A DNA stretch of 64,000 nucleotides. Origin: a bacterium (GTDB taxonomy: Bacteria > Actinomycetota > Acidimicrobiia > Spongiisociales > UBA5794). The stretch spans positions 1 through 64,000 of the forward strand of contig JAAETI010000912.1 in NCBI GenBank assembly GCA_024228555.1, read 5' to 3'. The position numbers and the translations under genes are program-made. This document shows, piece after piece, positions 4,842 through 6,541 of this stretch. The notes beneath the pieces are model-generated. The model was not told the DNA's origin, made no database searches, and saw only the letters and a program-made list of their open reading frames with translations. How positions within the stretch are numbered: position 1 is the stretch's first letter; each line of letters begins with the position of its first letter.

Positions 4842-5423
4842 TCAGTGAGTGATGAGTGCGGTGCCCTGCGCCATTTGGCTACGCGCCTCGCCCGCGGTCA
4901 AGCGGAGGGTGTCGGCACTCAGCAAGGCAATAAAGCTGTGGAGATTGGCGGGATGATGACCGGCAGCAGCAAACCAGTTGACCCGCTTCGCAGCCAGATC
5001 AGCTGTCATCTCAGCCGGAACGCCTTCGTTGTCGTACCCGAGGAGGACGAGCACCATTTCGATGTCTTTCCCCGTGGGTGCCCTTCCGAACAGTGACGAT
5101 CGGGCCGAGGCAATCGCAGCGACAGCAACATCGACGTTCGACCGATGCTCGCCATCGGCAAGAACGAGATCCCGAGCCGCTACCAAAGACCGTGCATACC
5201 CCGAGTCAGGGCCCGTGGTGCCAAACCCGGCACCCCATTGCATGTCTTCGGGCCTGTGCAACTCTCCGGGACGATCGGGAACCCAGCTCCGCGCCGGATC
5301 CGGCCTCTTGCGCGGCCGCGGCAGGTCTGAGATCTCGAGTTCGATGTTCGGCTGTTGTCCCACGTCATCCTTCCAAGCGACGAGCAATGGTACCCGCTCG
5401 CCGCACGACGACATGCTCCTCAA
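4842..5423 (-). CDS. Hypothetical protein, 193 aa
   Basis: Open frame in a consistent operon orientation; no family recognised. Confidence 0.5.
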   Translation of the reverse strand: MRSMSSCGERVPLLVAWKDDVGQQPNIELEISDLPRPRKRPDPARSWVPDRPGELHRPEDMQWGAGFGTTGPDSGYARSLVAARDLVLADGEHRSNVDVAVAAIASARSSLFGRAPTGKDIEMVLVLLGYDNEGVPAEMTADLAAKRVNWFAAAGHHPANLHSFIALLSADTLRLTAGEARSQMAQGTALITH

Positions 5424-5464: not shown

Positions 5465-5607
5465 CGAACTCGGCAAAGCCGAGTTCGTTGGCAGTTCCTT
5501 TGGAACTGCGGCTTGCCGGACGCTGCCGACCGCGGCGAGTTTGCGAAGCAAAGTCGCAAGGAACTCACCTCGGTGGGTTCCCACTCGCTCGAATCCTGAT
5601 TCGAGCG
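5465..5607. repeat. Cluster of five consecutive small hairpins (inverted repeats)
   Basis: cgaactcggc-aaa-gccgagttcg; gcagttcc-ttt-ggaactgc; gcgagtttgc-gaa-gcaaagtcgc (1 mismatch); ggaactcacc-tc-ggtgggttcc (1 wobble); cgctcgaatc-ct-gattcgagcg. Confidence 0.85.
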
Positions 5608-5611
5608 AAGC

Positions 5612-6541
5612 TCAGACGTACTCCAGCCAGTCCTGGTGCTTGTCGAGTTTGCCGCTGACGAGATCGGCGTACAGACGCTGAGCGACCCTGGTCACCGGTC
5701 CCGGTGTCCCGTCGCCAACGGGGCGATCATCGATCTCACGGACCGGCGTCACCTCGGCGGCGGTGCCGGTGAAGAACACCTCATCGCCGTAGTACAGGTC
5801 GGATCGGTCGAGGGTCTTCTCGACAATCTCATATCCCTCTTCTGCGAGCAACATCATCACGGCGTTGCGGGTGAGGCCATCGAGGCAGCCAACGGCAATC
5901 GGCGGGGTATAGACAACGCCACCGCGTACCAAGAAGAGATTCTCTCCGCTCCCCTCGCTGATGACCCCGTCTTGGTTCAGCATCACAGCCTCGTCGTATC
6001 CGCTCTGCACGGCTTCCATCTTGGCCAAGATGCTGTTGATGTAGGTGCCAGTCGCCTTGGCGTTGGGAAAGGCTGTGTTCGGGAAGCGACGCCATGACGC
6101 CACCTTCACCCGAATACCATTGCGGACTCCCTCCTCGCCAAGGTAGGCGCCCCACTTCCAGGCGATTATGGCCGTCCGCACCCGGGCCCCGGCTGGATTC
6201 AGCCCGATCGCACCAAGCTCCAGGAAGCTGATCGGCCTGACATAGCCAGACTCCAGGCCGTTAACTCTCAGGATCTCCTTGGCCGCCTCGACCAATTCGG
6301 GCACGGACCAATCCAACTTCATGTTGTAGGCCTTCGCCGACTGATGCAGGCGTGCCATATGGTCCGTCAGCCGAAATACCTCGGTTCCCTGTGGCGTCTC
6401 GTAAGCGCGGATGCCTTCGAAGATCCCCGTTCCATAGTGCAGGGCATGCGAAAGCACGTGAACATTGGCGTCGGCCCATGGGACCATTTCGCCGTCAAAC
6501 CAGATGTATTTGGTGGGTTCCATAGCCCCATCTTGCCACAC
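5612..6541 (-). CDS. ilvE: Branched-chain amino acid aminotransferase
   Basis: IWFDGEMVPW, HYGTGIFEGIRAY, GYDEAVMLNQDGVISEGSGENLFLV motifs. Confidence 0.94.
   Translation of the reverse strand: MWQDGAMEPTKYIWFDGEMVPWADANVHVLSHALHYGTGIFEGIRAYETPQGTEVFRLTDHMARLHQSAKAYNMKLDWSVPELVEAAKEILRVNGLESGYVRPISFLELGAIGLNPAGARVRTAIIAWKWGAYLGEEGVRNGIRVKVASWRRFPNTAFPNAKATGTYINSILAKMEAVQSGYDEAVMLNQDGVISEGSGENLFLVRGGVVYTPPIAVGCLDGLTRNAVMMLLAEEGYEIVEKTLDRSDLYYGDEVFFTGTAAEVTPVREIDDRPVGDGTPGPVTRVAQRLYADLVSGKLDKHQDWLEYV

Follow-up and report, generated by a model that had tools for sequence, protein, structure and literature searches.

A dispersed double-hairpin element, probably a family of miniature mobile DNA, behind ilvE in an Acidimicrobiia genome

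The stretch of DNA analysed here (the window; 64,000 nucleotides) carries ilvE, which encodes a class IV aminotransferase (Aminotran_4), a conserved gene downstream of it, and an array of small hairpins in the interval between the two (Table 1). All five hairpins listed in a preliminary description of this array are present where it placed them, but the fifth is one base longer at each end. The array does lie between ilvE and the ORF of 193 aa named there, but the call of that ORF (start 5423) is probably too long, as its relatives and a ribosome-binding-like site favour a GTG start near 5364. The downstream gene (window 4842-5423; start VGQQPNIELE..) has no assigned function or Pfam match and adjoins ilvE across the order. 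The distance from ilvE to this gene is about 250 nt here and much shorter in same-genus relatives.

The hairpins are real and chance is excluded. The folding energy of the interval corresponds to z = -5.2 and -5.5 against dinucleotide shuffles, and the genome search for further hairpin clusters that had been proposed detected seven tight clusters in a 420-kb genome sample and none in shuffles, a density that cannot stand for the genome average, as the sample comes partly from contigs picked for holding a match. At Rfam gathering scores two tRNAs were the only matches in the window, and the array did not match a known RNA.

Table 1. Features of the hairpin array behind ilvE and of its neighbours, in window positions.
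Feature	Position	Strand	Remarks
Downstream conserved gene	4842..5364	-	no Pfam match; GTG start near 5364 probable
Hairpin 1	5465-5487		10 bp, loop AAA
Hairpin 2	5491-5509		8 bp, loop TTT
Hairpin 3	5535-5557		one mismatch, loop GAA
Hairpin 4	5560-5581		one wobble, loop TC
Hairpin 5	5585-5608	-	11 bp; second dispersed family, TTCGnnCGAAnCAGGnTTCGnnCGA; begins 2 nt past ilvE stop
Copy 1, double-hairpin element, H1-CAA-H2 on minus strand	5465..5509	-	covariance model R1 57.1 bits, E 6.8e-11 in own genome
Copy 1 H2 (read on +)	5465-5487		CGAACTCGGC-AAA-GCCGAGTTCG
Copy 1 linker TTG (minus strand: CAA)	5488..5490	+	paired-hairpin scan
Copy 1 H1 (read on +)	5491-5509		GCAGTTCC-TTT-GGAACTGC
Spacer between the two inverted copies	5510..5535	.	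26 nt
Copy 2, H1-CAA-H2, inverted relative to copy 1	5536..5581	+	covariance model R1 48 bits, E 1.4e-8
Copy 2 H1	5536-5556		GCGAAGC tip, one mismatch
Copy 2 linker CAA	5557..5559	+	paired-hairpin scan
Copy 2 H2	5560-5581		loop TC, one wobble
ilvE (class IV aminotransferase, Aminotran_4)	5612..6541	-	array sits behind its 3' end

The stems had been described as unrelated, and from the differing arms it had been concluded that this is no simple repeat. Neither statement could be upheld, as four of the five hairpins have a (C/G)GAACT / AGTTC(C/G)-like core and pair as H1-CAA-H2 units, and the array is a repeat after all, with co-varying arms. The recurring unit, H1-CAA-H2 or H2-TTG-H1 on the other strand, has two stems of 7-11 bp with triloops and an invariant linker of 3 nt, is 39-51 bp long, and runs as G-H2-TTG-H1 along the direction of the preceding gene. 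In the paired-hairpin scan the CAA/TTG linker was found in 10 units in each reading, and any other 3-mer in two at most. Hairpins 3 and 4 form one unit; hairpins 1 and 2 form another, in the opposite orientation. A whole-genome DNA search with the interval detected a sister array on contig C394 (80% over 125 nt), which has the same modules in the same order, with the stems kept, the loops changed, and a spacer that is similar in length and diverged in sequence, as well as partial copies at further sites in this genome.

Pairing has been maintained while the arms changed. In nine ungapped copies 97% of the cells are paired, a figure biased upward by the choice of these copies with a hairpin finder, and in 12 of 19 pairs both partners have changed, a result that none of 500 shuffles reached. 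A separate pattern search that allowed mismatches anywhere gave, for the pairs of H1, 31 compensated changes against 14 broken or wobble pairs (1 GU, 3 AC and 10 other). At three loci (L096, L111 and L124, near 1500, 1548 and 2495) the upstream stop codon apparently lies inside the element, within GGGTAA, GGCTGA and GGGTAG respectively.

The family of hairpin 5 was detected by pattern search in 24 copies in 41 genomes (control 0); this search required CAGG, and the constant loop therefore carries no evidential weight. By our own gene calls, 10 of 14 loci have the hairpin starting 1-6 nt past a stop codon, and in genome G001 one is present behind ilvE where the double hairpin is missing.

The distribution of the double hairpin was determined with a covariance model (R1), on which the copy totals given for this genome rest. 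About 45 full copies were found in the genome itself (G000) at E<=4e-4; of 60 genomes of the order, 30 had matches, and the number per genome ranged from 0 to 48 or more. Across the phylum sample two of 297 genomes matched at E<=1e-4, this one and one other of the same order. Among named records, the motif occurs in Acidimicrobiia MAGs, in one MAG labelled Acidobacteriota and in Haloferax, where the single match is taken for chance. Searches of phages, plasmids and viral contigs gave no match to the element, and phage or plasmid cargo was dropped as an explanation. In five same-genus relatives ilvE is followed at short distance by the same gene, without the double hairpin; divergence of the intergenic DNA prevents exact insertion borders from being drawn here. 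A structured RNA, one of the possibilities raised in the preliminary description, is not supported as a conserved part of the ilvE transcript in view of these five empty loci, whereas another, a family of miniature palindromic elements, is borne out by copies dispersed in the genome and the order with compensating changes in their arms. The array is best read, from these comparisons of sequence, as a probable lineage-specific pile-up of miniature dispersed DNA elements behind ilvE.

With respect to genes the copies are polar. Almost all of those in G000 are intergenic (44 of 45), and with genes called by a codon-usage finder made for this analysis, it is the 3' end of the neighbouring gene that faces H2 in 33 of 41 cases (27 protein and 6 tRNA genes), 18 of them within 15 nt; on the H1 side a gene 3' end lies within 15 nt in three cases. 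Copies that follow tRNA genes join them at an exact point, discriminator base, then C, then G-H2, across many isotypes and species. For tRNA-Ile, three same-genus loci are without the element where G000 carries one, and many relatives have an ordinary AAACCCC..GGGGTTT hairpin in its place. The flanks of non-redundant copies, in every genome group, have G at -1 in 57 of 60 and G at -7 in 45 of 60 (p about 3e-12), as do 8/8 and 7/8 of the new copies, and both window copies carry this pattern. Direct repeats of 2-7 nt are not in excess at the element ends, and the target duplication that characterises a MITE is thus not seen. Near-identical copies of 39-41 nt occur in unrelated flanks in G037, G017 and G018, where both 30-nt flanks have <50% identity in 72 of 106 near-identical pairs.

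Other repeats were observed around the copies. In G037 (flanks of, for example, L182 and L192-L195) and G018 (L234 and L236) the copies lie amid short motifs in tandem, gatgcctgatgcc and ctgtctgctgtctg among them, another layer of repeats in these genomes. Tandem repeats of 80 bp that bear the element are found in G000 at C517:1-147, adjoining tRNA-Met, and at C142:1-117; both are at contig ends, and the two contigs may adjoin each other. Isolated 3' halves of tRNA-Ile (positions about 28-76) occur at G013:C42:20371-20418, G030:C80:197-243 and G015:C15:67-115 (L179-L181), following a similar acccc(c)tga stretch. As they are probably att sites of tRNA-Ile-targeting islands, they were dropped as a clue to the mechanism.

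The loops follow a rule of their own. Nearly all copies have triloops, in a scan that allowed loops of 2-5. Copies within one genome share descent and so the loop counts are not fully independent, but 84 of 126 distinct hairpins have GNA or TNC loops (that is, GNA on one strand), as do 93 of 106 H1 loops in a search that left the loop free and 14 of 18 new hairpins. The rule is weaker in G000 than in G037 and G017, but it is still followed there by 16 of 34 hairpins, against 12% expected (p=4e-7) and against 5 of 30 background triloop hairpins; one of the four element loops in the window (GAA) obeys it. Of the 126 hairpins, 117 are closed by a C.G pair. In copies amplified recently, no other position varies nearly as much as the loop centre, and the stems, the linker and the outer loop bases are nearly fixed.

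Loops of the GNA type are the rule for exceptionally stable DNA mini-hairpins, and d(GCGAAGC) melts at 78 C (PMC4686876). The promoter hairpins of phage N4 extrude at physiological supercoiling and need a C:G closing pair together with the loop bases G and A (PMC4496689), and the C:G closing pair with a G..A triloop is what the Acidimicrobiia element has. The N4 early promoter hairpins likewise have a short stem and the G..A loop on one strand; they are however phage promoters for the virion RNA polymerase, whereas the element is dispersed, chromosomal and located behind genes (PMC4496689). With Vienna DNA parameters the GNA strand had no advantage in folding energy. Wobble pairs are few (5 GU against 6 AC in 1480 pairs), but so they are in ordinary 3' hairpins of this genome (6 against 11); GU scarcity alone therefore does not show a role at the DNA level, and the test was dropped as proof of one.

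The element is a dispersed, patchy, polar, junction-specific double hairpin with GNA loops, and we infer that it acts and spreads as DNA. The reading we prefer, at a probability of roughly 0.6, is that of a new and probably mobile family of miniature hairpin elements at the DNA level, copies of which landed behind ilvE in this lineage; a side role as a gene-end boundary is possible. C-GNA-G mini-hairpins would extrude from supercoiled or single-stranded DNA, and a putative recombinase or nuclease would recognise them and join the element next to G-N5-G. Just behind stop codons and tRNA ends, insertions would be tolerated as nearly harmless, and they may double as boundaries or terminators at the ends of genes. 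Checks for Y1_Tnp and RVT_1 across genomes of the order brought up no mobilising enzyme. A reverse transcriptase was rejected as the mover, as RVT_1 is present in G000 yet missing from the copy-rich G017, G018, G030 and G037. The RVT_1 matches in G000 number six (C835, C411, C472, C135 and C32), with zero in same-genus relatives. A more specific version can be put forward only tentatively: the element would belong to a new class of miniature mobile DNA in bacteria and move as a single strand in folded form, a non-Y1 enzyme would recognise two C-GNA-G mini-hairpins and insert the element at G-N5-G by gene ends, and the hairpin tip would be remade at each copying with a free or mutable centre base.

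The main rival is an RNA terminator or stabiliser at gene ends, in which the tandem hairpins serve as an intrinsic terminator without a U-tract or block 3' exonucleases on mRNAs and tRNA precursors, and which spread by selection and gene conversion. The fixed polarity behind genes is equally expected of a functional terminator and counts against the mobile reading: the element lies directly 3' of stop codons and tRNA ends in sense orientation, and behind tRNA-Ile it occupies the place of the conventional hairpin (G000, G013, G030 and G046 compared). We nevertheless regard this explanation as unlikely. The GC-rich hairpin with a T-tract that defines an intrinsic terminator is not found in the element, where H2 is followed by TTG and a second hairpin, and the terminator-like sites in the region are about as many as chance gives (7, against 4.8 in shuffles), none of them a whole element hairpin. 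A gene-end RNA would also have to be missing from the orthologous ilvE end of five relatives, and it leaves the preference for G at -7, beyond the hairpins, unaccounted for. The TNC/GNA rule on either strand is no RNA rule that we know of. A terminator role has been proposed for hairpin clusters that are likewise runs of short adjacent hairpins past stop codons, but these are a computational class without a sequence family and most of the predicted hairpins have loops of 5-8 nt (PMC8355165).

REP sequences and REPINs are likewise extragenic palindromic repeats in inverted pairs with compensatory changes, and are probably miniature mobile DNA (PMC3116915, PMC3733652). The element resembles them in being small, extragenic (as counted above), palindromic, dispersed and present in many copies, with inverted pairs separated by a short spacer in the window and on C394. 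Mobilisation by a RAYT, a Y1 transposase of the IS200/IS605 family, is however very improbable and largely refuted by the absence of both the RAYT and a clear GTAG/CGTC tag, the element instead being a pair of neighbouring triloop hairpins joined by an invariant 3-nt linker. G000 lacks Y1_Tnp (PF01797), as do 59 of the 60 genomes, all copy-rich ones included; its sole carrier, G015, is not element-rich. GTAG/CTAC lies within 8 nt in 11/87 cases upstream, partly as TAG stop codons, and 0/87 downstream; for CGTC/GACG the numbers are 7/87 and 4/87 (control 2-3 each). Rather improbable, too, is a history without active mobility, in which template-switch correction preserved old palindromes in perfect form, and ordinary segmental duplication, together with horizontal transfer alongside neighbouring genes or tRNA-targeting islands, spread them. 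The favoured G-N5-G junction argues against it, as do near-identical copies whose flanks are unrelated and whose ends are fixed. In its favour, compensated arms that lack intermediates agree with quasi-palindrome correction, local tandem duplication accounts for some copies (C243, C517 and G028), and the tRNA-Ile 3' halves beside copies resemble island att sites.

Double-hairpin elements of mitochondria were reportedly described in a study from 2000, and GC-rich palindromes are said, by Yin et al. in 1981, to flank tRNA genes of Neurospora mitochondria (both cited in PMC7218506). The Neurospora palindromes, in the part of the account available, are like some of our copies next to tRNA genes, but they are mitochondrial. 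The mitochondrial double hairpins, and the repetitive hairpin elements of sponge mtDNA (PMC2800124), are in the available parts of these sources likewise tiny, with one or two hairpins, dispersed between genes, patchy, optional between relatives and without a known enzyme; they belong to eukaryote organelles, and those parts do not report the CAA/TTG linker, the GNA rule, the G-N5-G junction or gene-end polarity. The family described here appears to share their build, with two adjacent hairpins, a short linker and dispersed, optional copies; the likeness is one of build and homology is not claimed. No report of such elements in Acidimicrobiia was found in the open-access literature, and a prior description in subscription papers is possible; the double-hairpin element was previously unnamed.

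The element accounts for much of the intergenic clutter near the ends of tRNA and protein genes in Acidimicrobiia genomes. Whether structure is kept up at the level of DNA or of RNA is a long-standing question for REP-like repeats, and the GNA rule and the variability of the loop centre are handles on this upkeep and on the copying of bacterial palindromic repeats. If mobile, the element would be a bacterial counterpart of the mitochondrial double-hairpin elements, in a group where the enzyme can be searched for by co-occurrence.
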